46,897 nucleotides of DNA from a virus. Under the pieces are notes generated by a model. The model did no database searches, was not told the DNA's origin, and saw only the letters and a program-made list of their open reading frames with translations. The stretch's first letter is position 1. Each line of letters starts with the position of its first letter. Positions 4,843 through 46,855 of this stretch are shown piece by piece. The position numbers and the translations under genes are program-made. The stretch spans positions 1 through 46,897 of the IMG/VR virus record IMGVR_UViG_3300025012_000148. One strand, written 5' to 3'.

Positions 4843-7800
4843 TAAGTTTATTTGTACGATAATGTTAGGGATAGCGACTCTATCTTCTATCTGTTTTGCA
4901 ACAGAAGGGATTAAAGGTTCCGCTTTACCAACCGCATCTACGGGAAGTATAGGTGACACAGCGATCATAGTGCAGGATGGCGTAACAAAGAAGCTTCCTT
5001 TAGGGAATATTCCTCATAATAATCTTTCTGGTAGGACTGCTACTGGTGCGCACACTACAGGCGCTATTATTGGTCTTGATGATGCTCTTGCTGCGAAGCA
5101 AAATGCTTTTACTAACGCTACTTCTCTGGATAAGATAGGGACAGGCGGTGATGGAAATCCCACTTGGAGTGGTTCTGCTTGGCCTGGTGGTACAGGCAGT
5201 GGTGTTTCAGATCATGGTGAGTTAGATGGTTTGTCCGATGACGATCACCCCCAGTACCACAACGACACGCGGGGGGATGAGCGGTATGTGCAACAGTCGT
5301 ACACCTCCGCAGGCGGGGGCAGGGCTACGAATGATGAGGTGGCGGCGGGGTATGAAGCCAAGACCGGCATCACCTATATTCAAGGCGCGGTTCAGCACAG
5401 CTACTCCGGTGCAAGTATCTCGTCCGGCTCGAACGAAGTCACATTCTCAGATATAACCTGTTCCGCCGCAACGCATGTAGGGAGATACGCGGTAATTCAA
5501 AACGCTGGCGGGTCAGGCGGTCAAAACCTCGTATCTGAAATCACCGGGTGCAATAGCGGTAAATTTGTTTTAACTGATAACGCAGCAGTTACTGTGTCCA
5601 GTGCTAGAGGCATTATAGCTAGAGATGATACACCAACTGTGCAGGCAGTCATAGACGCATACAGCGGTTCAGATTTCACGTATCCCGGTCTAACTATTCA
5701 CTTCTCTAGCGCAGTGTTTCTTAAATCTTCCGCCGCTCAACCTGCAAGAGCAGTGCTGATTGATGGGAAAAACAACATTACAATTACCGGCCCTGGCACG
5801 ATCTACTTTAACGATACCATTGCTTTCATGGTCGATGGTGGGACACGTCTTAGAGATGATAACGCGGCTAATACGAGGGTGGGTAATAGGTTTATAGGGT
5901 TGACTTTTGATGGTATGGAATCCCGCTATCTTACCGGCGCGGTTGCTCCTGTGTATTCGACAGCCATAGGATTTGGCAGCACGCGGGGGGCCTATGGATA
6001 CGGCGGGACCTATGAAGAGTGGGTAGAGAATCAGAACGTTGACCAAGTAAAGTTCTTCAACATGAAGCGGGGCATTGATGCGTTTTTAGGTACGTCAATC
6101 ACGCTCAATTCTACAACCGGAGTTATTACCTACACGGACGACCCAACGCATCCTTTCCACACAGACGATCCTTATGCAGGGCATTTGTATATTACCAACA
6201 TTATCGCGGTCAACAGGGATGTACCTGATTCGATAGCTATCTGTTCTAACGGGCGGGACAGTCACATTCATAACGTCTACTCTTCGGGACCGCAGATAGG
6301 CGTTCTTTTAGGTGGGCCTGGTTATCTGGTCGGCGGGACTCGCGTAAGCTCGGTGCATACTTGTGAAGGGATGAGCCACGACCCTGATGCAGTAGTCGTA
6401 ATTAAAGATGCTACCGCAACAGGTGGCAGTGCCAACACGCTTGTAGATAGCAATCTGACACATGCGCAGAGTGACGGCTTGCCGATCATCACTGATGAAT
6501 ATATTGGACAAACAATCACCATAACCGCTGGAACTGGCTCAGGGCAGTCTCGGACGGTAAGCGCTAATACTGCCACATCTTTTACAGTATCAGTTAATTG
6601 GACAACCCAACCCGACAGCACCTCAGTTTACACCGTGACCGGAACCATCTCTGACGTTGCCGCCATATTCGCCGGGCATGGCAAAGGATCACCTATTCTC
6701 TACGGCATAGTTACCTCTCACGGTGGTATGTTTTACAGCAACTATATCGACAATGCCAAGTTCGTCGGGTTTAAAACTTATAGACATGCCAACACGATAA
6801 TTAACGGCAATCGTTTCGATGGGTGGCTGTGGAACAACTACATTCCCCTGGAAATAGACAGCCCCACGGAGGGCGCTACGTTCTCACGGTTTGTCGTAAC
6901 AGGCAACCGCATTACGGCAGGGAATGCCTACAACACACCTACACAGCCAACAGGCGGGGCGATTCAGTTTACTAATCCTACATCTTTAGTAGGGGCAGTG
7001 AGCAGCGTTTTTTCAAACAATACCGATTCAGACAGCGACACCAATACAACCAGTTCGCTGAAAATATCGGAAGTAGATGGTGCTCCCGCTGGATATATCC
7101 ATAAACTCAACGTGCCTAACGCCTCCCTCACTGATGAAGGGGATGGGGAATATACATTGAGCATTTCCGGCAGCGCCTCATTGCCAACCGGCGCAGCGGG
7201 AGACTTTTTGTACTACACCGGCAGCGAGTGGGACGATACAGACGGCAGTAAGCTGTTTTGGGATGATTCTGCCGGGAAGCTAGGTATAGGAATTACCTCC
7301 CCCGAAGGCGTGTTTCACGCCAAAGGAGCAACCAGTTCATATTTCGAACGTACTTCCAGCGGCACCAACGCAGTCGGTACGGCACTATCAGTCACCAGAA
7401 GCACAACAGCAGGGATGGTAGACGGTTTTGGCGCAGCTACTACCTTCTTTGCTAAGGACAATGCTGGCGGAACAGTAAGTTCAGTTGACGCTTCTGCGAA
7501 CACTCTCACCATCTCGGGGCATGGACTCACAGATAACGTCTTTGTTACCTTTACTGGCACCGTTCCTGACGGCATTACGGCAGGCTTGAACTACTATGTT
7601 ATAAACGACGAAACCAATACATTCAGCGTATCTACAACTCTAGGCGGCAGTGCTGTCGATATAACCGGAACACAAACCGGGGCAGTGGCAAGCATGGCTT
7701 CAACGCCAATAGCAAGTGTGGCGGCGGTACGCAGCGGCAACGATGCAACTGGCAGCGTGTCATTCAGGCCATATATCAATGGCACTCCTACAGAGAAGTT

Positions 7801-19582: not shown

Positions 19583-19980
19583 CCAATGAGCTGTTAGATG
19601 AAATCTCTACATTCCTTCAAGACTGTGGGGGTGTATATGAAACTATCACAGGGGATTGCCAGAGAAATATTCTTTTAGCTATAGTAGCTAATCAGTATAT
19701 TATTTCAAGAGATGAAGCCGGGAAGATTAATCACTTCCTCTGTTACGCTAAGATAATGCCAGAAGATATTGAGTTACTAAAAGAAGGAATAGAACCGCAG
19801 CATCTATTTGATGGTACTGTTATATGGGTTGTTGAGCATGGTAATAAATCTGGTCGTAAAGGTCTGATGGATTTTATCAAAGAGATAAGACGCAGGGCCG
19901 TAGGCTGTCAAGGAGTTCTATGGTATCACAAGGGGCAAGACCTTGTGTATTATCCAAACCAGAAAGGTTCTTGTGAATAA
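19561..19980 (+). CDS. GNAT-like internal virion protein
   Basis: A 139-residue protein resembling the acetyltransferase-like internal virion proteins of T7-type phages (gp13-like). A strand-helix pattern with FDGTVIWVVEH (about 83-93) and a C-terminal GQDLVYYPNQKG are typical. An acetyl-CoA loop is not obvious, so it may be a structural relic of the fold. It overlaps both neighbours, indicating a tightly coupled operon. Confidence 0.6.
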   Translation: MYPSFQLANELLDEISTFLQDCGGVYETITGDCQRNILLAIVANQYIISRDEAGKINHFLCYAKIMPEDIELLKEGIEPQHLFDGTVIWVVEHGNKSGRKGLMDFIKEIRRRAVGCQGVLWYHKGQDLVYYPNQKGSCE

Positions 19981-20968
19981 TACTTTTGCTATATGCAGTA
20001 CCTGTTATAAGAAAATACCCGCAGGAATCTCACAAGATTCTACTGGCGTATATCTACATAAGCATTGCTGTTCTGAAGAGAAGGTGCTTATTGAACGTAG
20101 CGCGGATTTCTATAATTGGGTAAGTGGTTTGTCTTATAACAACATTATGGGAAAATACCTTAGTATCCCTATTACTACAAGATGCAACACTACCTGCAAA
20201 GCATGTTACAATAAAGACTTAGGTACAGAGCTTAGTGTTGAAGAGATAAGAGGACTAGCTTTCTCTGCCCCAACAAGCATTAACAGATATATCTTTACAG
20301 GCGGGGAACCTACCTACCACTCCAAGTTCTTGGATGCTCTGGCGGCAGTTCCGAATACAGGACTAATAACTAACGGTCTTCTGTTTCAAGATAGTGAGTT
20401 TCTAAAGGAAACTCTTAAACATACTTCAATAGATATTCCTGGTGTTCTACCGTGGATGTTCTCGTTGAATACAAAAGATACACCTGATTATGAAAACAAA
20501 CTTAAAGCCTTAGATAACATCAAAGCTCTTGGCTTTAAGGTTTCAATAATAGTAGCTACGGTCTTTAGCTTGGATGAGATACCTACTGTTATAAACGAGT
20601 TTAAGAAGCTAAAGGATGTGGGACATACATTTAAGATAAGAGCAGCATTTAATATTGGTGAGTATAATCAAGCGGATAGAATATTTCTATCTGATTTAGT
20701 ACAGACTGCTCTATGTTCTGTTGAATCTGGTGAGTTTATTCCCGGCCTTAACAATCACCAGTACTTACTTAACTTCAACCTAGATGGTCTGCATACTATC
20801 CTTGTAGTTTGTCCCGATAAGACGACAATAGATTTACTTAACATAGGCCCCTGTGGACCTTATCAATATACCAAGTTGGGCTATATAGATAATCTCATGG
20901 CAGCTCTTATTGCTGACGAGGGACTACTTAAAGGTTGGGTTGGTGGGAATAAACTGGAAGGAGTATAG
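19973..20968 (+). CDS. Radical SAM enzyme with N-terminal Cys/His segment
   Basis: About 331 residues from a GTG behind AAAGG. Residues 8-33 contain CSTC and HKHCC followed by an LIERSADFYNW segment. This layout resembles the N-terminal domain of the COG1964/MJ0619-Tes radical SAM family. The SAM core has CNTTCKAC (71-78, CX3CX2C) for a 4Fe-4S cluster and TGGEP (109-113). Two further Cys lie near the C-terminus (VVCPDK, GPCGP). Known relatives make carbon-carbon bonds or methylate unactivated carbons, but the substrate here cannot be read from sequence. It lies inside the virion operon and overlaps the previous gene. Confidence 0.85.
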   Translation: MNNTFAICSTCYKKIPAGISQDSTGVYLHKHCCSEEKVLIERSADFYNWVSGLSYNNIMGKYLSIPITTRCNTTCKACYNKDLGTELSVEEIRGLAFSAPTSINRYIFTGGEPTYHSKFLDALAAVPNTGLITNGLLFQDSEFLKETLKHTSIDIPGVLPWMFSLNTKDTPDYENKLKALDNIKALGFKVSIIVATVFSLDEIPTVINEFKKLKDVGHTFKIRAAFNIGEYNQADRIFLSDLVQTALCSVESGEFIPGLNNHQYLLNFNLDGLHTILVVCPDKTTIDLLNIGPCGPYQYTKLGYIDNLMAALIADEGLLKGWVGGNKLEGV

Positions 20969-29141: not shown

Positions 29142-29266
29142 ATACCGAGTTTATCTCCTATAACCCCACAGGTTATACATTCCCAAGTATTTCTCCAATG
29201 ACCTCGTGAGTCTTTATATGGATAAGCGCGTCTGTATATATGCCTACACTCCACAGATTCCACCAC
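29138..29266 (-). CDS. Small zinc-binding protein overlapping the reductase end
   Basis: About 42 residues from a GTG with AGGAGG 9 bases upstream; the upstream part of the frame lies inside the reductase gene and is ignored. Residues Cys8, His10 and a later CITC could bind zinc. The stop overlaps the lysozyme start. The function is unknown. Confidence 0.55.
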   Translation of the reverse strand: MVESVECRHIYRRAYPYKDSRGHWRNTWECITCGVIGDKLGI

Positions 29267-30911
29267 TACAGGTTGCCTCCTCTGAATATACGATACCTTC
29301 ATTCTGTACTGCTTCATCATAAGGTACTTCCGTCAGTGGTTGAAAACCCCTCGAACCAGAAGGAAAGCAGGTAATACCACGAAGACGATTCGCATAACGA
29401 AGTATAGTGTCTCCAAGTTTAGCTGCGGTGTCCTCATTATTTAACTCACTTCCCCATTCTGGCAGGTTGATGGTGGAACTAATTCCCATGTCAACGTAAT
29501 CTTGTATATCTGCTTGGAATCTGATTCTCTGCTCAGGTACTCTTGCAAGGCTATAACTTGTATCAATTCGTTCTGCAGAGCAGCCATACTCTTCAATAAG
29601 TCTTTTGGCGGTAGAGTCAATGACATACTGATACTTCCACTTTGTTCCATCTACGAGATACCTCCTTTTGTAAGCAACTGCAAACAACGGCTCAATACCA
29701 CTCGAAGTTGAAGCCAGGATGGAGAGGGTTCCTGCTGGCGCAATAGCTCTATATTTCTTCGGATGTGAGAGATAGAATCTGTCACAATGTTCATTTGCAG
29801 CTCTTTCTGATTCACTCTTATACACCTCCAACCATTCTTTCAGCTCCGGTACAACTTCGTACTGGTAGTTTCGTTTAAGTAACCACTCATGGATTCCCAT
29901 CAATCCGAGTCCTATCTTTCTATTATTATCCCTAACGATACGGACTTTATCGTAAGGAACCTCACCCCGAATGGTGCCACATACGAGAAATTTTGATGCC
30001 AAGGATACCACATCTTTGAGTTCATCCAAAGTCTCAATATTGCCAAGATTGATTGAACCAAGATTACATACGTCAGAATCATCTTCGCTCGTAAACTCAG
30101 TGCAGGCATTACGTAGTGTCTCCTTTTCATTTTCATAGAAATTAAAACACATTCCAGGTTCGCCGGTCTTACACATCTGAGTAACTACATCGTGCCAAGG
30201 TTGTGGAACAACAAACTCACGAGAACGATCTTGACAATTTACTAAGTTTATAAAGTCTGTATCAAAATTTACAGAGATATTTGTCATATCCAACGGAGCA
30301 GGAAAGTTGAAGTCCTGTGACTTCAGTGCTTTTACTGAAGGCAGCCAGTCCTTTGCACTTATAAACTCCCTAATGTCCTCATGCTGCCAGTTGAGACTTG
30401 CAAATATTGCGCTCCGTCTACTTCCTCCCTGCATAACATTGCGCCCGATTTCGTTAACAATGTGCATAAGAGGAACTGGCCCAGAGGAGATTCCTCCAGT
30501 ACGAGATAATGTGCGACCCGAGGGACGTAATACACTGTAGTCAACTCCAATTCCTCCTCCTGACATCAGGGCGCTAGTGCTTCTTTGCGCTAGTGCCGCC
30601 CACTCTTCACGTGTATCCTCCTCCGCTTTCAAACAGAAACAATTATTCCAGAAGGACGCTGGCCTACCCGCATAGTATAGGTAGCGCCCTCCGAAAATCA
30701 CTTTCATATCTTTAAGATATTCAACCAACTGCTTCTGATCGTCTTTAGACATAATATCTGTAGTTAGCTTACCGTAGCTACAACTGCGATTTCCACAAAC
30801 ATCATTTACTAATCTTTCGCAGAGATTATCCCAAGTATCATTTGAGCCTTGAGCATATTTTTGGTAAAAAATATCTCTGGCAAAGGGAGTTTTAAATCTA
30901 TCTTTTACCAA
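29244..30911 (-). CDS. nrdJ: Ribonucleotide reductase, class II (B12-dependent)
   Basis: A 555-residue enzyme that reduces ribonucleotides to deoxyribonucleotides. It has SGGGIGVDYS (117-126), the catalytic NACTEF pattern (NxCxE, near 267), DVCNLGSINL shortly after, and a C-terminal CSGGIC pair (near 550) for re-reduction. No small radical subunit gene follows and no ATP cone is present, which fits adenosylcobalamin-dependent class II. The start is TTG behind GGAGGGG; the frame overlaps the HNH gene by 7 bases. It would supply dNTPs during replication where oxygen or host enzyme is limiting, given host cobalamin. Confidence 0.9.
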   Translation of the reverse strand: MVKDRFKTPFARDIFYQKYAQGSNDTWDNLCERLVNDVCGNRSCSYGKLTTDIMSKDDQKQLVEYLKDMKVIFGGRYLYYAGRPASFWNNCFCLKAEEDTREEWAALAQRSTSALMSGGGIGVDYSVLRPSGRTLSRTGGISSGPVPLMHIVNEIGRNVMQGGSRRSAIFASLNWQHEDIREFISAKDWLPSVKALKSQDFNFPAPLDMTNISVNFDTDFINLVNCQDRSREFVVPQPWHDVVTQMCKTGEPGMCFNFYENEKETLRNACTEFTSEDDSDVCNLGSINLGNIETLDELKDVVSLASKFLVCGTIRGEVPYDKVRIVRDNNRKIGLGLMGIHEWLLKRNYQYEVVPELKEWLEVYKSESERAANEHCDRFYLSHPKKYRAIAPAGTLSILASTSSGIEPLFAVAYKRRYLVDGTKWKYQYVIDSTAKRLIEEYGCSAERIDTSYSLARVPEQRIRFQADIQDYVDMGISSTINLPEWGSELNNEDTAAKLGDTILRYANRLRGITCFPSGSRGFQPLTEVPYDEAVQNEGIVYSEEATCSGGICGV

Positions 30912-36665: not shown

Positions 36666-37391
36666 TCACAGTTTGTATTTCTCTAGTTTTCCCCATGCCT
36701 CACCCGTTTTGCACTCACCACTAAACGGTACGTTACATGGATAACCAAAGAACTGTTCAATAGATGTACTCAACCCTACTACTCTAGTATATAATGTTTC
36801 TGCTACAAAGTCAACATATTTTTCAGGACAATCGAAAACAAGTTCATCATGCACCATCATTATAAATTTTATATCTGGATACTTGCTGAAATCTTGTTGA
36901 CATAAGACCATCCATAGTGCCATAAAATCAAATGCAGTTCCTTGGACTGCGTAGTTGCAAACCTCCGCCCATTTGTACTGCATTCCATCTCTCGTTTTAT
37001 ACTGTTTAAAGCGCCATAGGCGCCCTGTGGCTGGACTTTTTAATTCGCCTGACCTCTGCACCTCCCTATAGTTATTTTTCTGCCATTTCCCCAACCCTTT
37101 ATACTTGGAATAGTAGTTGTCCATAATCTTTTCCCACTTCTTGAGAGAGAAGTTTGGCATCTTACTGTCCATGTAGAAAGCGTAGGGAGTCCCACCGTAC
37201 AAGGTTCTGAACGAAGTTACTTTCGCGGCTGTCCTGTTATCATCAGTCAATGGAAGTTCCATAACCTCAGTACAGTTCATTGCATGAGCATCTACTCCAT
37301 TCCAAATTTCTTGTAGCATAGCTTCATCTTGTGAGAGGAGAGCCGCTACGCGTATTTCCAACTGAGACGCATCGCAGGATACTATTGGCAT
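36666..37391 (-). CDS. DNA polymerase family A, C-terminal part (catalytic palm)
   Basis: A 241-residue piece with motif A CDASQLEIR (about 6-14), motif B RTAAKVTSFRTLYGG (about 53-67) and motif C MMVHDELVFD (about 179-188). These are the fingers and palm of a Pol I-type enzyme. It starts 1 base after the stop of the N-terminal piece, in the +1 frame, and joining the two would leave no residues missing. The ATG has an AGG at about 8 bases. It may be a separate subunit or the result of a frameshift. Confidence 0.85.
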   Translation of the reverse strand: MPIVSCDASQLEIRVAALLSQDEAMLQEIWNGVDAHAMNCTEVMELPLTDDNRTAAKVTSFRTLYGGTPYAFYMDSKMPNFSLKKWEKIMDNYYSKYKGLGKWQKNNYREVQRSGELKSPATGRLWRFKQYKTRDGMQYKWAEVCNYAVQGTAFDFMALWMVLCQQDFSKYPDIKFIMMVHDELVFDCPEKYVDFVAETLYTRVVGLSTSIEQFFGYPCNVPFSGECKTGEAWGKLEKYKL

Positions 37392-37392
37392 A

Positions 37393-38580
37393 TCAATACC
37401 TACTTACAAAAATTCTTTTGACAGGGCCAGTACTGCCTCTAGGCATGTTGGTTCCATTCGGCGAACTACTACTTAATCTACCTGTTCTCGTTATACAATT
37501 ATTCATGGAGGGATGAACAGTATCATCTGGACATAGCCTTTCTACTATCCCATCGAAGTAAGTGGACTTCAACTTGGATAGCTTTGCTTTCTCTTGGAAC
37601 AGTTCTAAGATGCGCTTCTGAGCAGGGGTCGTACATTTAAGGCTTTTAAGGGCTTCCGCGTCTGTGGAGTACACACCTTCTTTGGAAGTTTCAGCAGATG
37701 GCCGAAAGCCCAATCCTTTGATTCGCACATTAGATACACACTTCCGAAAGTAGGAACGGATAGAACCATCCTTACGTGGTTTCTCAACCAGTTCTTGTCC
37801 TTCTCCTCGTATATATCCACCATACAGGATTGCCGAGAGCTGGTCTTTGCTGTTAAGGTTAAGGCTAGACGTATCAATTCCGATTTCAGATTGGAGCAGC
37901 TCGTGTATTTCTCTGTCAATATCACTAAGTTTTCGCCCATACTCTTCTCCATAGTTTTCCGCTAGAGTTCTATCGACCTTCATTCCATTGTATTCAATTG
38001 TTGCGAGTACTTTACATAGTTCAAACTGCAATGTTGCCAGAGCTGATACATTTTCCAAGAGAAGTCGCTTGCTCTGTCGCTGATAAAGAGCGAGAGTGTT
38101 AATGCAATCTTGTTCACAATAAGGCAGCAGTATATCGCTAGGTATTTCATCAGTTTCATAACCACTCTCCCAAAATACTTTGACTTTATCTATCTTGTCT
38201 GAGATACCATAATCTTTACTGAGTTGTTCAAGAGTTAATTCCCCCCTTCCTCCTTGCTGTCCTCGTAAGAGATACTCTGCTACTTGCGTACAGAATACTT
38301 TATACTTTGATATGTCTATTCCGTAGTGCATAAGCCACAGTAAATCAAACTTAGCATTATGTGCTACAATTCTGGTTGCATTATCCAGCTCCTGCTTTAT
38401 CTCTGAGATACTTTGTGCGTGAGACTGCTTACATTCTGGATGATTCAACAACCAAGTCCTAGTTGTCCCATCCTCCCTCGCCACGGCGAAACAAACGGCG
38501 TAGGAATTGCTGCACCATGGAAATGAGTTGGGCAGCTTCGTGACTTCCCAATCAAACGCGATGGCCCCCGTGTTTTTCAT
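37393..38580 (-). CDS. DNA polymerase family A, N-terminal part (exonuclease and thumb)
   Basis: A 395-residue piece with a 3'-5' exonuclease: FDWE (D10, E12), VAHNAKFDLLWL (72-83) and YCEQD (154-158). The thumb and TGRLSSSSPNGTNMPRGSTG (near 370) follow, and it stops in KRIFVSRY just before motif A. The start is the ATG with GGGAG close upstream. Total length with the next ORF is about 636 residues, normal for a phage family A polymerase, so together they form one complete replicative enzyme. Confidence 0.85.
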   Translation of the reverse strand: MKNTGAIAFDWEVTKLPNSFPWCSNSYAVCFAVAREDGTTRTWLLNHPECKQSHAQSISEIKQELDNATRIVAHNAKFDLLWLMHYGIDISKYKVFCTQVAEYLLRGQQGGRGELTLEQLSKDYGISDKIDKVKVFWESGYETDEIPSDILLPYCEQDCINTLALYQRQSKRLLLENVSALATLQFELCKVLATIEYNGMKVDRTLAENYGEEYGRKLSDIDREIHELLQSEIGIDTSSLNLNSKDQLSAILYGGYIRGEGQELVEKPRKDGSIRSYFRKCVSNVRIKGLGFRPSAETSKEGVYSTDAEALKSLKCTTPAQKRILELFQEKAKLSKLKSTYFDGIVERLCPDDTVHPSMNNCITRTGRLSSSSPNGTNMPRGSTGPVKRIFVSRY

Positions 38581-38857
38581 TGTACTCCCTAACTGCTTGG
38601 TTAATTTCAAAGATACGTTCAGGATTACTTACGTAGCAACTTTGTGCATCTCTGTGCGGTTCATCACTACGAACATAAAGCAATTTATCATAAGACAGTA
38701 ACTCGGGAACAGAGCATGATTCAATTCTCCAACCATTCTTAGCTCTAAAGTAGCAGCTATTGTGCGGTGCAAACTCTCGTCCTCTATGTGTCTGTTCTGT
38801 TATGTGTAGATAAACATCTGGCCCATCGTAAGTATACTTAATCTCTAGCTTTCGCAT
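38552..38857 (-). CDS. Hypothetical 101-residue protein
   Basis: A soluble protein with beta segments in the first half, three scattered Cys and a helical C-terminus (EINQAVREYNEKHG). The ATG is 4 bases after AGGAGG. It overlaps the start of the polymerase by 29 bases and lies 9 bp after helicase, so it is coupled to replication genes. No family was recognised. Confidence 0.65.
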   Translation of the reverse strand: MRKLEIKYTYDGPDVYLHITEQTHRGREFAPHNSCYFRAKNGWRIESCSVPELLSYDKLLYVRSDEPHRDAQSCYVSNPERIFEINQAVREYNEKHGGHRV

Positions 38858-40601: not shown

Positions 40602-40615
40602 TTTAGAAATCTAAA
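40602..40615. repeat. Palindrome TTTAG-N4-CTAAA, site 7
   Basis: The spacer is AAAT. On the leftward strand it gives the stop (GTT TAG) of the 40611-40832 gene and ends 14 bases before the ATG of the DUF7448-like gene, next to its ribosome binding site. Confidence 0.85.
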
Positions 40616-40832
40616 CGTCTTTCTTATCACCAAGCACAGGAGCAAACGGCCTGTTACACTCTACACATGTAGAGTACCAAACAATGTTTCTCTTACTGTC
40701 TCTGTACGTATGGTAGATATAGAACTCCTTACATTCCCCTGCTAATCTCTTTGGACATTTCTTACAATCCCCTTTACAGGATTCTTTCTCGCATATATAA
40801 CAGCGTGTTGGTTTGAGAGAGTCACTTCCCAA
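40611..40832 (-). CDS. Small cysteine-rich zinc protein
   Basis: A 73-residue protein with CYIC, CKGDCKKC, a single C and CVEC, enough for two zinc sites. The start is TTG, overlapping the end of the membrane peptide gene, without a clear site, so it is probably coupled. The stop falls inside palindrome site 7. The function is unknown. Confidence 0.6.
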   Translation of the reverse strand: MGSDSLKPTRCYICEKESCKGDCKKCPKRLAGECKEFYIYHTYRDSKRNIVWYSTCVECNRPFAPVLGDKKDV

Positions 40833-41696: not shown

Positions 41697-42150
41697 AAAG
41701 GCTACTCAGTCTAACTGTCTGAATATCATACGAACGTGTTTCTGCACAAGGATTGGGCATTGACAATTCAAACGGATTAAATTCATCTTCCTCTTCCGGT
41801 ATAAACTCTACGTCCATCTCTGCGCAGTGAGGAGCGACCTTATTAACCAACTTCTCTCCGTTAGATAACATTATATCCATACAGACAGAGCATTCAAAGA
41901 GAGGGACAACTTCCCATTCTTTGACTTCACCAATCCTTATCATCTCTCTTCCACAACACTCTGCTGAGGTAATAGGTTCAATAGGACTGCCCAATATGTC
42001 CTGTATATTCACATATGATCTACGAGAACCGGTAGTACAGAGAAGAGACCCATCACACACTTCTACCACGACAACCCTATCTCCGTTCTGAAATCTATGC
42101 GCGCTAGTATTCCCAATAATAGTAACAGTATCCCCAACTTTAAAGCTCAT
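41668..42150 (-). CDS. SH3/KOW-like protein with zinc ribbon
   Basis: A 160-residue protein starting MSFKVGDTVTIIG, an SH3 or KOW-like start, then ECCGREM and FECSVCM, which can form a zinc ribbon (about 64-90), and an acidic tail (FIPEEEDEFNPFE). The ATG has GGAGG at 6 bases. It overlaps the primase start by 29 bases. The role is unknown. Confidence 0.7.
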   Translation of the reverse strand: MSFKVGDTVTIIGNTSAHRFQNGDRVVVVEVCDGSLLCTTGSRRSYVNIQDILGSPIEPITSAECCGREMIRIGEVKEWEVVPLFECSVCMDIMLSNGEKLVNKVAPHCAEMDVEFIPEEEDEFNPFELSMPNPCAETRSYDIQTVRLSSLYATSSRPRS

Positions 42151-42331
42151 TGTATTCCTCCCCAAGTAAGTTCTCTATGTCAAGAAGTTCCGTTAAGTCC
42201 ATGTCCTCATCTTCCAACAAGGAACGGTTATAGTCAAAGACAACTGCCATACAAGCATTACATAGTTCCGGGTCGCCTATTCCATCCAGCGGTGAATCAC
42301 AAGCGCGGCAATGAAGTCCAGGTCTTAGCAT
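42140..42331 (-). CDS. Small zinc-ribbon protein with acidic tail
   Basis: A 63-residue protein with CRAC (8-11) and CNAC (24-27) followed by an acidic helix (EDEDMDLTELLDIENL). The ATG has GGGAGG at 4-5 bases and it overlaps both neighbours. This layout suits a small regulator that touches RNA polymerase or DNA, but that is inference. Confidence 0.65.
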   Translation of the reverse strand: MLRPGLHCRACDSPLDGIGDPELCNACMAVVFDYNRSLLEDEDMDLTELLDIENLLGEEYNEL

Positions 42332-42531
42332 TGTTCCTCCCTAAATCCAAACATAACAAGGTTATCTGCTTTGAATTTCTTACCGTTCTGTATCTGTGTC
42401 CAAATATCTGCTGGTAAATCATTCTTAGTGAGGTACTTTGCTGTGTCCCAACCAAGATCAGGACTATATATCTTTAGTTGTGCATACATACTATTATACT
42501 TAGTCAATGTCGTGCGTGTGTTAAGTAGCAT
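42325..42531 (-). CDS. Hypothetical 68-residue protein
   Basis: A small mixed protein with KIYSPDLGWDTAKYLT in the middle. The ATG has GGAGG at 7 bases within the end of the ATP-grasp gene. It overlaps the zinc-ribbon gene by 7 bases. No family was recognised. Confidence 0.6.
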   Translation of the reverse strand: MLLNTRTTLTKYNSMYAQLKIYSPDLGWDTAKYLTKNDLPADIWTQIQNGKKFKADNLVMFGFREEQC

Positions 42532-43313
42532 TTAATTGCCTCCACGTATGCAGCAAGAGTTGTTGGGCTTGACAATCCCGGTGCAGTGTTTACTTCCAAG
42601 ACCACTGGTTGTTCTGTTCTTTTCTCAATGATAAGATCAACTGCTCCGAAGTCCAGACCAAGCGCTTGTACGGCGGCCTTCGCTTGTTCCTGTGCTTCAA
42701 GAGATAGTTCAATGTTGTTGTGCGCAAAGACCCAACCACCCGCAAGATTACGAACATCCATGTTGAGACTACCTTCTCCAATAGCTTCATTCCTCCTCCG
42801 CTTCTTCTGTATGTCAATTACTTTATACTCCCCATTTAGATTTCTAAATACGTGTACTCTATATTCTCCTTTCACATCTATTCCTACTGTGTAGAGGGGA
42901 GCATCTACGATCTCGTCAAGAGAGCGTGCAACTGTTATACCAGAACCAGAGTGTCCTGTCAACTGTTTTCTACAGTACACCTTATTGCTTTGATCTACCC
43001 ACCAACTAGCTACACGAGGATTCTGTGTAAATTCGGGGATAGTAACGCCTCTGTCTTTTAGATACTTAAAGGTCTGTAATTTATTAGCTGCGTAACCTAC
43101 TCTTGTGGGGTCATTTAGCATTAAGCGCCAGTTATATCTCCATGCAGGTAATTGGCTGTTGCCCCAATTAATTATCAGATGATTTGCTCTTGGCCTGTAC
43201 GTACCTTCTGGTCTGATACGCAAGCAGTCTATTCCTGCCCCTTGCAACGCTAGTTGCAAATTCTTTGCACCCTCACTGCCAAATTTATATGGCCAGATTC
43301 TAACTTTTTGCAT
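42504..43313 (-). CDS. ATP-grasp ligase
   Basis: A 269-residue carboxylate-amine ligase. It has a preATP-type N-terminus, a KQLTGHSGSGI loop (116-126), EYRVHVFR (150-157), KKRRR, then DFGAVDLII and VVLEVNTAPGL (237-247) with E240 and N242 for magnesium-ATP, as in RimK-type enzymes. It would form an amide bond through an acyl-phosphate. It is the third member of a block with a glutamine amidotransferase and an amidoligase. The ATG has AGAGGA at 6-7 bases. Palindrome site 8 lies inside its coding sequence. Confidence 0.85.
   Translation of the reverse strand: MQKVRIWPYKFGSEGAKNLQLALQGAGIDCLRIRPEGTYRPRANHLIINWGNSQLPAWRYNWRLMLNDPTRVGYAANKLQTFKYLKDRGVTIPEFTQNPRVASWWVDQSNKVYCRKQLTGHSGSGITVARSLDEIVDAPLYTVGIDVKGEYRVHVFRNLNGEYKVIDIQKKRRRNEAIGEGSLNMDVRNLAGGWVFAHNNIELSLEAQEQAKAAVQALGLDFGAVDLIIEKRTEQPVVLEVNTAPGLSSPTTLAAYVEAIKCYLTHARH
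42835..42848. repeat. Palindrome TTTAG-N4-CTAAA, site 8 (inside a gene)
   Basis: The spacer is ATTT. It lies in the ATP-grasp gene over codons for VFRNLN (about residues 155-160), the only copy inside a coding region. On the leftward strand a GGGGAG follows it. Confidence 0.8.
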
Positions 43314-43342
43314 TAGCAATCCTCTCTTTGCGGAACGTAAGT

Positions 43343-44494
43343 TCAGCAAGCCTGTTTATCTATCTTAGCCCTGACAGATTCAATCGTTGATTTAATTTCC
43401 TCTGTCTCCACGACAACATCGTTTGCAACAGCATACTCCAAGCAATCTATGCAGATTGTATGTGTATAGTGTTCTTCCACTACCTCCACCATCTCTACTT
43501 CCGCACACCACTCATTACACCACTTACATTCCACTGTCAGAAGCGTGGGTTTGTGCTCTATCTGCTTTGTCTCATATTGCGAACGGCAGAAAGCATTACA
43601 GAAATTACCGAGCACATGACCTGTTAAATCATTACCACAATGTAAACATTCAAAGGAGTTAGCGTCTGCCTCCAAGTGCTTCTCCTTACAATACTGTGAA
43701 CAATAATGGAACTCTACCTTGTCACGATACAACGTAATGTGTGTGTTGTCCTTCCCACAATAATCGCACGGATGTTTCTTGTAACTATTCATCCACTTGC
43801 TTTTGTAAATATCCTTACAATTTGCAGAACAAAAGTTTACATTATTGACATTAGCATATACATTATTACGAATCCAATTATCACATTGAAGACAGCGATC
43901 AGTATGTGTATATGTCTTGTAATATCCTGAATCATAATGACTTTTACGAGGTTCCCACAGAAGATTGGAGTACCATATACCGCCCTTCCAACTGCCCTTT
44001 GTTTCATTAAAGAGGGTGATTTCTCTGCTTCGCTTATCCAGCACAGCAAGTTTGGAGAAACCAATGTACTCCTCAATCATCAGCTTGATTGCTTCATTAC
44101 CTGTCCAACCATCGGGTAGTTTCTGCAACACCAGCTCATTGAACATCTGCGTATCTGATCGTATCTTGTCAGGACAATCATCTATCTTTGATATAACACC
44201 GTTATGAATGAAAGCAATATTCTCATCCACTTTAAATGGGTGGCAGTTGAACAAGTCCTTGGTTCCGTGCGTCTTGATACGGAAGTGAATCAGCATCGGA
44301 CTATCAGGATGCTCAAGCTGCACTGGCTCGAACTCTGCATAGAAAGCATCAAACTCCATGCTCTTATGTATCCGCAGTTCACCAGCACTATTGATGTAAG
44401 CAAACCCACATCCATCTGGATTTTGTGTAAAACACTGTTGTAATGTTTCTTTGTCTATGACTTTTCCAGCTGGCTTTGCTATTGCTACGCACAT
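43343..44494 (-). CDS. Class II glutamine amidotransferase with zinc-finger tail
   Basis: A 383-residue protein. Cys2 is the expected catalytic nucleophile of an Ntn hydrolase; IHFRIKTHGT (69-78), NCHPF (83-87) and FIHNGV (95-100) are the usual glutamine-binding blocks. From about 195 on there are four zinc units: pairs CLQC, CDYC, CLHC and CKWC, each followed by FCSANC, YCSQYC, FCNAFC or CIDC. The start has AGGAGG at 6 bases, 21 bases after palindrome site 9. It probably supplies or transfers an amide nitrogen to the neighbouring ligases. Confidence 0.85.
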   Translation of the reverse strand: MCVAIAKPAGKVIDKETLQQCFTQNPDGCGFAYINSAGELRIHKSMEFDAFYAEFEPVQLEHPDSPMLIHFRIKTHGTKDLFNCHPFKVDENIAFIHNGVISKIDDCPDKIRSDTQMFNELVLQKLPDGWTGNEAIKLMIEEYIGFSKLAVLDKRSREITLFNETKGSWKGGIWYSNLLWEPRKSHYDSGYYKTYTHTDRCLQCDNWIRNNVYANVNNVNFCSANCKDIYKSKWMNSYKKHPCDYCGKDNTHITLYRDKVEFHYCSQYCKEKHLEADANSFECLHCGNDLTGHVLGNFCNAFCRSQYETKQIEHKPTLLTVECKWCNEWCAEVEMVEVVEEHYTHTICIDCLEYAVANDVVVETEEIKSTIESVRAKIDKQAC

Positions 44495-44516
44495 CTACTA
44501 CCTCCTAAATTTGTTA

Positions 44517-44530
44517 TTTAGAAAACTAAA
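44517..44530. repeat. Palindrome TTTAG-N4-CTAAA, site 9
   Basis: The spacer is AAAA. On the leftward strand a TATAAT (44542-44547) lies just upstream within the end of the amidoligase gene, and the amidotransferase ATG follows 21 bases downstream. Confidence 0.85.
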
Positions 44531-44537
44531 TGCAAGA

Positions 44538-45920
44538 TTAAATTATATAACCTTTCTGCTTCAGGAACGTAATAAGATTATTGTAATACACTGGTTCTTT
44601 ATGCACAAACTCCACAAACTTCTGCACTGTCAGGTTAGTAATGGAACTTACTTTACAGAACTTATACAGAGCGTGTGTAAACTCCACGTTCTTGGAGAAC
44701 TGTTCTTTAGTTATTGCCCCCTGGAACATACGAACTTCCACAGTATGCTCCGGCTGTAGATTTACCTGACCTCTATCTCCTCCTGATTTCTCTATTGCTT
44801 TACGAATCATCCCATCTTTCTCGACAGCAGAACAATAGTCGTTGGGATGCCTCTCCGCTATGATAGTTGCAAAGTCCTGGTTTTGTTCAAGAAATTGCAT
44901 AAACTTGAATAGTTGTGCGTTACTGAAAGCATCTTTGCTGATGTGTACGTGCATACCACATTGGTCTGAATGTATATACTTTTCGGATACGTTGAAGATG
45001 TTATTCAGCGGGAAACTTTCCTTGAAATACTCAAACGTAAACGGGTGCGTAACAATCTCAAAGCCGTGGTAGACGGACGCATCCTTCTTCATGTAGTAAT
45101 AATCTTCTTCCGGGTCCTGGTTCTGCAACTCCTTACAGATACGGAGTTTTGCTATGCTATCTTCTTCAAAATTAACTTCATTCTCCACTCCGAAATATTC
45201 CTGTCCTTCAACGAAAGATGGTTTGAACTTCCCTACTGGTTTATAGTGATAGCGTTTTATTGTCCCGAACTTCTCTTCAAGCAGACACGTCCCACACAAA
45301 TGAATGTGAGCCTCTGCTGCTTGGGAATGTGGTGGAAACGTATAATTAACTATCAACGCAGACTCCCCACAACAGTCGCAATATCCAGTAGTTAAGTGTC
45401 TTTTGCAGATAAACTTACCAGGATAAATCTCATGCAATGTACTGTTAAAAACCAAGTTACCACAATGGTAACACTGTTTCATATCAGCAGCACAAGTCTT
45501 ACAGGCATTCTTGGTTGTGAGGTAGTTCTTTCTTGTATGCCATGTTTCACAATGAGAACAGAAATAGAACTTATTTTGTTTAACGCATGTCATACAAACA
45601 TCCCCAATGGGAGTTTTCTCTAACGTCTTGTGTAATTTACCACAAGAGTTACAGGGCTTAAGTGTTGTAAGACAGGACGGACAAGCATTGTCCTTTAATT
45701 CTACTCCACCAGCTCCACAATAATGACAGATACCTGTAGCACAGGTAGCGCAGTACATATTTCCTGCTTGAGCGTGGTAAATACCATTAATTCCTACGGT
45801 TTTACAACTACCGCAGATGAAGGCATCGTTAATACAGACAGAACAGATACAGGCTTTTTGATTCTTAGGAAGGTGCTCTATGATTTTACCTTCATTACGA
45901 CCACAAAATTGACACAGCAT
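44538..45920 (-). CDS. Amidoligase with long N-terminal zinc-finger array
   Basis: A 460-residue protein. Residues 3-212 hold 13 CxxC pairs and one CxxH, enough for about seven zinc ribbons. The C-terminal amidoligase domain (Amidoligase_2-like) has GVENEVNF (245-252), KKDASVYHGFEIV (278-290), CGMHVHISKDAF (321-332) and VNLQPEHTVEVRMFQG (386-401), matching the Glu, His and Arg pattern of the glutamine-synthetase-like fold. It would form amide or peptide bonds using ATP. It is the first of a block with GATase and ATP-grasp genes. The start has AGGAGG at 7 bases. Confidence 0.85.
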   Translation of the reverse strand: MLCQFCGRNEGKIIEHLPKNQKACICSVCINDAFICGSCKTVGINGIYHAQAGNMYCATCATGICHYCGAGGVELKDNACPSCLTTLKPCNSCGKLHKTLEKTPIGDVCMTCVKQNKFYFCSHCETWHTRKNYLTTKNACKTCAADMKQCYHCGNLVFNSTLHEIYPGKFICKRHLTTGYCDCCGESALIVNYTFPPHSQAAEAHIHLCGTCLLEEKFGTIKRYHYKPVGKFKPSFVEGQEYFGVENEVNFEEDSIAKLRICKELQNQDPEEDYYYMKKDASVYHGFEIVTHPFTFEYFKESFPLNNIFNVSEKYIHSDQCGMHVHISKDAFSNAQLFKFMQFLEQNQDFATIIAERHPNDYCSAVEKDGMIRKAIEKSGGDRGQVNLQPEHTVEVRMFQGAITKEQFSKNVEFTHALYKFCKVSSITNLTVQKFVEFVHKEPVYYNNLITFLKQKGYII

Positions 45921-46184: not shown

Positions 46185-46198
46185 TTTAGAAACCTAAA
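46185..46198. repeat. Palindrome TTTAG-N4-CTAAA, site 10
   Basis: The spacer is AAAC. On the leftward strand it supplies the stop (ATT TAG) of the 46194-46334 gene and ends about 19 bases before the start of the 45996-46166 gene. Confidence 0.85.
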
Positions 46199-46334
46199 TG
46201 GTGATATTTATTGGAGCCTTAAATTTGATCTTCTTCTGTGGAATAATTCTTCCCTTCTCGTCTGTCTCAATTACACACTTACAGCGACTGCAAGGTACGA
46301 GACAGGAACAAATTGTATTAGGCTTACACAACAT
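46194..46334 (-). CDS. Small cysteine-rich protein
   Basis: A 46-residue protein with six Cys in its first 20 residues (CK, CSC, CSRCKC), probably binding one or two zinc ions, and a basic beta-type C-terminus. The ATG has AAGGAG upstream. The stop lies inside palindrome site 10. Confidence 0.6.
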   Translation of the reverse strand: MLCKPNTICSCLVPCSRCKCVIETDEKGRIIPQKKIKFKAPINITI

Positions 46335-46380: not shown

Positions 46381-46539
46381 TTAAAGACCTTTAGCAATCG
46401 CTTTGATTAGGCTATTAAAACTATCATCAACTTCTTCTAGTGTACTAATAAGTTCTCTTGCTTCCCAAACGTGTTCAAACTCGATGGTTACAGAAAATGG
46501 TTTAAATTCCGTTTGATCTAATGTTGTTGTAATTTTCAT
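46381..46539 (-). CDS. Hypothetical 52-residue protein
   Basis: A small soluble protein with a strand-rich first third (MKITTTLDQTEFKPFSVTIE) and an acidic helix after it. The ATG overlaps the upstream stop as ATGA and has AAGGAG at 5 bases. No family was recognised. Bases 46335-46380 upstream of the next gene hold nothing notable. Confidence 0.65.
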   Translation of the reverse strand: MKITTTLDQTEFKPFSVTIEFEHVWEARELISTLEEVDDSFNSLIKAIAKGL

Positions 46540-46724
46540 ACTATCTCCTTTGGCTCAAAGAAACAGCCTCTTATTGGGTTTTCAGACGCACTGTGACAAT
46601 GAGAACATATCCCATCTTCAAACTTCTTCTGAAATTCTGCACTCCATACAGGGTTACCATGTTTACAGATACGGCAACTGTGTAGGGCGTGGCTTGGTTC
46701 TCTAATCCAATGTAAACAACCCAT
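46536..46724 (-). CDS. Small zinc-ribbon protein
   Basis: A 62-residue protein with CRIC (about 17-20), CSHC (about 40-43) and further Cys and His residues, typical of a zinc ribbon. The ATG at 46724 is preferred to an upstream GTG because AGGTG lies just before it. It overlaps the next gene by 4 bases. Confidence 0.65.
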   Translation of the reverse strand: MGCLHWIREPSHALHSCRICKHGNPVWSAEFQKKFEDGICSHCHSASENPIRGCFFEPKEIV

Positions 46725-46726
46725 AG

Positions 46727-46855
46727 TCACCTACCATTCTTAAAGAAGTAGACAACATACGCTAACGTAACAGAAACAAACGGTAATATCTTCGGAAGAT
46801 TAGTTAAAATTCCATGTTGCGGACAGAATAATCCCTCACGTATTATCTCAAGCAT
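46727..46855 (-). CDS. Small membrane protein spanning the circular junction
   Basis: A 42-residue protein with one hydrophobic segment (LPFVSVTLAYVVYFF) and a short basic tail. The ATG has a strong GGAGG site. Most of the gene lies in the right-hand terminal repeat and it is complete only here; the copy at 1-87 is cut. Its continuity shows that the two ends belong together. Confidence 0.7.
   Translation of the reverse strand: MLEIIREGLFCPQHGILTNLPKILPFVSVTLAYVVYFFKNGR

Follow-up and report, generated by a model that had tools for sequence, protein, structure and literature searches.

Zinc arrays on two enzymes of an early-region phage trio comprising an amidoligase, a class-II glutamine amidotransferase and an ATP-grasp ligase

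The virus record IMGVR_UViG_3300025012_000148 of IMG/VR (G000), whose 46,897 bases make up the whole window analysed here, has its terminase, portal and major head genes on the plus strand; the minus strand carries an early block. Near the upstream end of this block sit three consecutive minus-strand genes encoding, in this order, an amidoligase, a class-II glutamine amidotransferase (GATase) and a RimK-like ATP-grasp ligase. A Shine-Dalgarno-like sequence precedes each of the three. A sequence-only reading of this DNA had placed three enzymes of amide- or peptide-bond chemistry side by side here; the open reading frames (ORFs) do lie at that place, the family calls agree and the genes form an operon-like block. 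Its features are listed below (GS, glutamine synthetase; RBS, ribosome-binding site).

44538..45920, minus strand: amidoligase gene (PF12224), 460 amino acids, N-terminal zinc array followed by a GS-like catalytic domain; RBS GGAGGA
45276..45920, minus strand: amidoligase zinc array (residues 1-215), with 13 CxxC and one CxxH in seven four-ligand units
45285..45380, minus strand: core zinc unit of the amidoligase, formed by C181, C184, C209 and C212 and present in nearly all family members
44547..45230, minus strand: amidoligase catalytic domain, residues 231-458, GS-like
43343..44494, minus strand: GATase gene (class-II, GATase_6-like), 383 amino acids; RBS AGGAGG
43940..44494, minus strand: GATase catalytic domain, residues 1-185, with Cys2 as nucleophile
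43442..43894, minus strand: GATase zinc tail, residues 201-351, four units, three of them CxxC...CxxxC
42504..43313, minus strand: RimK-like ATP-grasp ligase gene, 269 amino acids, start ATG at 43313

The amidoligase belongs to the Amidoligase_2 family (PF12224), whose profile it matches over residues 270-373 (E 3.7e-9, 37.3 bits against a cut-off of 22). Its structure model (mean pLDDT 83) was matched by Foldseek to glutamine synthetase, the Pup ligase PafA and YbdK, with 8-13% identity in those alignments; a family-profile sequence search found no PDB chain for it. Across 40 diverse relatives, reaching down to 17% identity with the window's copy, residues G244, E246, E248, D280, E288, G322, H324, R357, N387, E395 and R397 are invariant. 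The second protein scores just below the Pfam cut-off for GATase_6 (E 8.4e-6, 26.3 bits against 27), and it has the conserved N-terminal Cys, Arg, Asn-Gly and Asp of class-II GATases and, by its model, the Ntn fold. This model is very good for residues 1-180 and poor across most of the zinc tail, and it matches the GlmS glutaminase, EgtC and PurF. C2, R72, G77, N98, G99 and D114 are invariant among 39 GATases. Loss of catalytic residues in close relatives, named beforehand as an outcome that would speak against the proposal, was seen in neither the 40 amidoligases nor the 39 GATases.

The third protein is an ATP-grasp_3 member (E 1.1e-6, 29.3 bits against a cut-off of 23.2) that matches phrog_2599 at E 1.2e-81, aligns weakly to RimK, C-terminal LEVNxxPG motif included, and carries no zinc array. 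The ORF list starts it at TTG 43349; the better start is ATG 43313, preceded by AGAGAGGA. Comparison with the close relative IMGVR_UViG_3300025010_000095 gave dN/dS values of 0.085 for the amidoligase, 0.022 for the GATase and 0.24 for the ATP-grasp ligase; the trio is under purifying selection. The same relative retains all 56 cysteines of the two zinc-bearing proteins (33/33 in the amidoligase, 23/23 in the GATase).

Both zinc regions were found as the sequence-only reading had counted them, with 13 CxxC pairs before the amidoligase domain and four zinc units after the GATase domain. The 13 pairs fall within residues 3-212, and a CxxH at 172-175 completes a seventh unit, giving units at residues 3/26, 36/57, 65/80, 90/109, 121/140, 150/172 and 181/209; those of the GATase tail lie at 201/222, 243/265, 283/299 and 323/348. 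In 20,000 composition-matched shuffles of the amidoligase, the number of CxxC averaged 3.7 and never exceeded 11, and composition-matched shuffles of the GATase tail gave a mean of 3.0 and a maximum of 9 Cx2-3C, against 9 observed. The core unit next to the amidoligase catalytic domain is conserved among the 40 diverse amidoligases (C181 invariant; C184, C209 and C212 at least 90%), so one zinc unit is a family feature and the remaining six are additions. In the loci read, the units are parts of the enzymes themselves, and not the separate genes that would have counted against a genuine fusion.

The description of the two arrays as matching does not survive closer comparison. Amidoligase units are spaced CxxC...CxxC (one CxxC...CxxH), whereas three of the four GATase units are CxxC...CxxxC. 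The possibility that one array is a copy of the other was rejected, the similarity being unconvincing (E 0.061 in a single pairwise test). A viral database entry labelled 'LIM domain containing protein' matches most of the model. In LIM domains two fingers are joined, with just two residues between adjacent ligand pairs, and here 4-8 residues separate successive units; the amidoligase array is LIM-like at most. Net charge averaged -0.06 per residue over 30 arrays, which are near neutral or acidic. Nucleic-acid binding, one of the targets suggested earlier, is mildly disfavoured because the arrays are not basic as a rule, and this is weak evidence, since the window's own array has a charge of +5 in 216 residues and a slight positive charge is also seen in its long-array relatives.

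Single-protein scans returned one relative only, IMGVR_UViG_3300025010_000095. A GATase-profile scan of IMG/VR, from which the best 80 of 457 relatives were kept, and a second scan (best 80 of 257, overlapping the first) yielded 65 pairs after clustering at 80% identity; these loci were picked by GATase similarity, so that amidoligases without a GATase would be missed. The amidoligase lies directly upstream of the GATase in nearly all loci with both flanks, a single Brachyspira locus having the reverse order. Stop and start of the pair often overlap, and each paired GATase begins Met-Cys. The correlation between the distance matrices of the two proteins is 0.83 over all loci and 0.95 among the 31 that have an ATP-grasp gene; in these same 31 loci, ATP-grasp distances correlate with those of either partner at 0.82. 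The ATP-grasp gene lies within a few kilobases in 28 of 64 loci. Since amidoligase and GATase adjoin in almost every relative, they most likely form one glutamine-dependent ligase. The closest relative (L007) has, between its positions 7565 and 7725, a short ORF of about 47 codons with a good RBS between GATase and ATP-grasp, for which the window has no space.

Across the 65 pairs, the number of CxxC ranges from 0 to 18 in the amidoligase and from 0 to 5 in the GATase, the window having the highest GATase count. The counts of the two partners correlate (Spearman 0.75), and independent contrasts on the tree of the catalytic parts gave r 0.44 (p 3e-4) from only 2-4 independent changes. A shared scaffold or common target had been proposed for the arrays: the co-variation in length agrees with it, and may mostly reflect shared ancestry. 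With so few independent changes we reject it as proof of a shared scaffold and regard it as suggestive only.

The same three enzyme types occur in a known podovirus cassette, as the sequence-only reading had recognised. A cassette of ATP-grasp, amidoligase and GATase in phages phiRIO-1, phiEco32, LUZ24, PaP3, tf and CW02 has been named for peptidoglycan modification (PMC5498523, PMC6256558); both papers cite Iyer 2009 and Hardies 2013 for it, and the gene list of a LUZ24-like phage includes it (PMC3890496). The enzymes are present in 309 (ATP-grasp), 280 (CW02-type amidoligase) and 315 (CW02-type GATase) phage records; compared by host genus, and not record by record, the three counts nearly coincide for most genera. 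The window likewise holds ATP-grasp, amidoligase and class-II GATase together in its early region, and its ATP-grasp ligase is about 45% identical to that of CW02. The CW02-type amidoligase lacks a zinc array. The class-II GATases of CW02 and T5S1, like the window's, have zinc at the end, in the form of a CxxC...CxxC unit. Because the enzyme types are shared and these GATases are zinc-ended too, we conclude that the window's trio is a reduced, zinc-expanded variant of the classic cassette.

The window's amidoligase and GATase are much closer to another type of pair than to the classic cassette. An amidoligase-GATase pair is reported in the OM43 phages MEP401 and MEP402, with mycobacteriophage Marvin cited for the same pair (PMC10580990). 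These phages have adjoining amidoligase and GATase genes in the same order, GATases 34-46% identical to the window's over the catalytic part, and amidoligases with one or more zinc units. They differ in having two (MEP401) or four to five (Marvin) CxxC against 13 in the window, none on the MEP401 GATase, and no ATP-grasp gene seen alongside. Longer arrays occur in zinc-rich pairs from groundwater and other viral contigs (L010, L011, L014-L017, L093), where 16-18 CxxC precede the amidoligase domain, the GATase is zinc-tailed and an ATP-grasp gene mostly lies within a few kilobases. Their GATase tails have one unit against the window's four, and their ATP-grasp gene is upstream of the pair, the window's downstream. 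Zinc on both partners is therefore not unique to the window; the combined length of its two arrays is unusual. To call the locus a little-described system was accordingly too strong, as zinc-bearing versions are in databases and the cassette itself has been described in several phages (PMC5498523, PMC3890496, PMC10580990, PMC6256558).

To judge from the families, a glutaminase beside a GS-like ligase is how glutamine-dependent amide-forming enzymes are usually laid out, and the ATP-grasp partner is a peptide-type ligase. We tentatively favour the explanation that the trio is an early-region phage cassette amidating a carboxylate on a macromolecule of the host, a protein being the likeliest. 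We infer that the GATase would hydrolyse glutamine at its N-terminal cysteine (Cys2 once Met1 is removed) and pass ammonia to the amidoligase, which would first activate the carboxylate with ATP in its GS-like site, probably as an acyl phosphate, and then amidate it, the two gene products acting as one glutamine-dependent ligase. RimK-type enzymes add glutamate, and the RimK-like ATP-grasp ligase, found near about half of the relatives, might add an amino acid to that substrate or to one related to it. The zinc units may serve as docking modules that bring the ligase to its target or hold its two subunits together; protein contacts would fit arrays that are near neutral or acidic and weakly LIM-like. 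A protein product is suggested by these weakly LIM-like arrays, not basic as a rule, together with the fold kinship with PafA, and the early position beside primase, helicase and polymerase is consistent with this explanation, as is the immediate expression of homologous genes when phage PSA-HP1 infects (PMC7082346).

Several observations weigh against this explanation. Neither a target nor any biochemistry was found in the literature. PafA, Dop, YbdK and glutamine synthetase share the catalytic fold by structure comparison, the likeness to PafA is one of fold only, and no Pup-like partner was identified. LIM structures match the amidoligase array marginally (E 0.07-0.4). In a large marine clade the amidoligase has a single unit and the GATase none, so the arrays are dispensable in principle. 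An apparent amidoligase-GATase fusion (L180) was rejected: the amidoligase end lies in another frame by a G-rich run, which indicates a frameshift or an assembly error.

A strong rival is the cell wall. Here the trio would amidate or extend the stem peptide of cell-wall precursors (D-Glu or DAP carboxyls), blocking superinfection or altering lysis, with zinc units that are structural or bind cell-wall enzymes. MurT/GatD, which amidates lipid II, is likewise a glutamine-dependent ligase of two proteins and holds zinc in its ligase partner, although its members, a Mur ligase (MurT) and a class-I type GATase (GatD), have folds unrelated to those of the GS-like and class-II enzymes here. That system shows that two-protein amidation of peptidoglycan exists in S. 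aureus (PMC3267633). Peptidoglycan modification is moreover the published proposal for the classic cassette, in the form of a prediction (PMC10580990, PMC5498523, PMC6256558), and in the Pseudoalteromonas phage PSA-HP1 transcription of the genes predicted to modify peptidoglycan begins at once upon infection (PMC7082346), which fits superinfection exclusion. However, we found no biochemical proof in the literature that the cassette modifies peptidoglycan (or protein). Parts of the full cassette were also not recognised: the COOH-NH2 ligase profile had no match in the window, and neither GGCT (gamma-glutamyl cyclotransferase) nor class-I GATase was matched among the window proteins scanned, some small ORFs being outside the scan. 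Seven to nine zinc units would be awkward for a lipid-linked substrate, and copies on bacterial mobile elements adjoin defence genes, not recognised cell-wall genes. Modification of the cell wall is possible, if somewhat doubtful.

A scan of genome contigs found 24 loci in bacteria, most with the amidoligase-GATase pair. Pairs in Coriobacteriia lie within a few kilobases of Gabija (L176), PDC-S06-like (L180), AbiE (L181) and PDC-S30 (L174) genes, and a Victivallis pair (L170) adjoins a type IV restriction enzyme. The amidoligases of L176 and L180 are 97% identical and have different defence neighbours. Several Coriobacteriia copies are near relaxase-like genes, as read by eye from the sequences, and a copy is present in 7 of 300 Coriobacteriia genomes. 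Nocardia sp. CDC159 has two tandem pairs (L168:4799-8859), in both of which the amidoligase bears 11 CxxC and the GATase 4. The relaxase-like and defence neighbours and the patchy occurrence suggest that the bacterial copies are mobile cargo, perhaps with a role in conflict. Taken further, the pair would be a conflict module (defence or counter-defence) carried by phages and integrative elements, with the same chemistry aimed at a defence component, to which this neighbourhood and this patchiness lend some support. We consider such a module quite unlikely: integrative elements are defence-rich anyway and the neighbour counts lack a background rate, PADLOC gave no match for the window's three proteins or one bacterial copy, and the phage copy has no recognised defence gene next to it.

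A small molecule or nucleic acid could also be the substrate, giving an amidated metabolite, nucleotide or modified DNA base that, for example, protects phage DNA. GS-like and ATP-grasp ligases often make metabolites, and the trio shares its early block with replication genes, a ribonucleotide reductase (RNR) and MazG. Yet the window proteins scanned include no recognisable base-modification enzyme, the arrays are not basic, and the pair is spread over unrelated genomes and mobile elements, which makes this substrate quite unlikely.

The surroundings of the trio consist of small putative ORFs farther upstream and, downstream, small ORFs followed by the primase, helicase and DNA polymerase genes. 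Small early-block ORFs with CxxC pairs lie at 40611-40832, 42140-42331, 46194-46334 and 46536-46730 (all minus strand); by eye, 42140-42331 resembles a small zinc-ribbon protein present in 24 of 64 related loci. The RNR (29244-30911, minus strand), encoded in the same early block as MazG and a metallophosphoesterase, has B12-dependent NrdJ as its best NCBIfam model (E 9.4e-62, below cut-off). The family A DNA polymerase (36666-38610, minus strand) is encoded by two ORFs (37393-38610 and 36666-37391) that abut at TGATATG; the break falls at about position 150 of the DNA_pol_A profile, and a natural split and a frameshift are both possible. A radical SAM protein (19943-20968, plus strand; PF04055, E 6.3e-10) is encoded within the late, virion-gene block, with a possible N-terminal zinc ribbon; its nearest NCBIfam models are MoaA and others, all far below cut-off.

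The label of peptidoglycan modification has been attached to this cassette in about 300 sequenced phages for over a decade, and no biochemical test of it was found in the literature. The tight linkage of amidoligase and GATase and the conserved zinc unit, seen both in phages and on mobile elements of bacteria, make the pair a clear two-protein enzyme for purification and assay. More speculatively, and on balance unlikely, widespread zinc-scaffolded, glutamine-dependent protein amidoligases of phages and bacterial mobile elements would covalently amidate or tag host proteins, perhaps those of defence or transcription, with array length tuning the target; the window's copy, in which both subunits bear long arrays, would then be among the most elaborate. 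These long arrays give a handle for finding the target, and the question of protein versus cell wall becomes directly testable.

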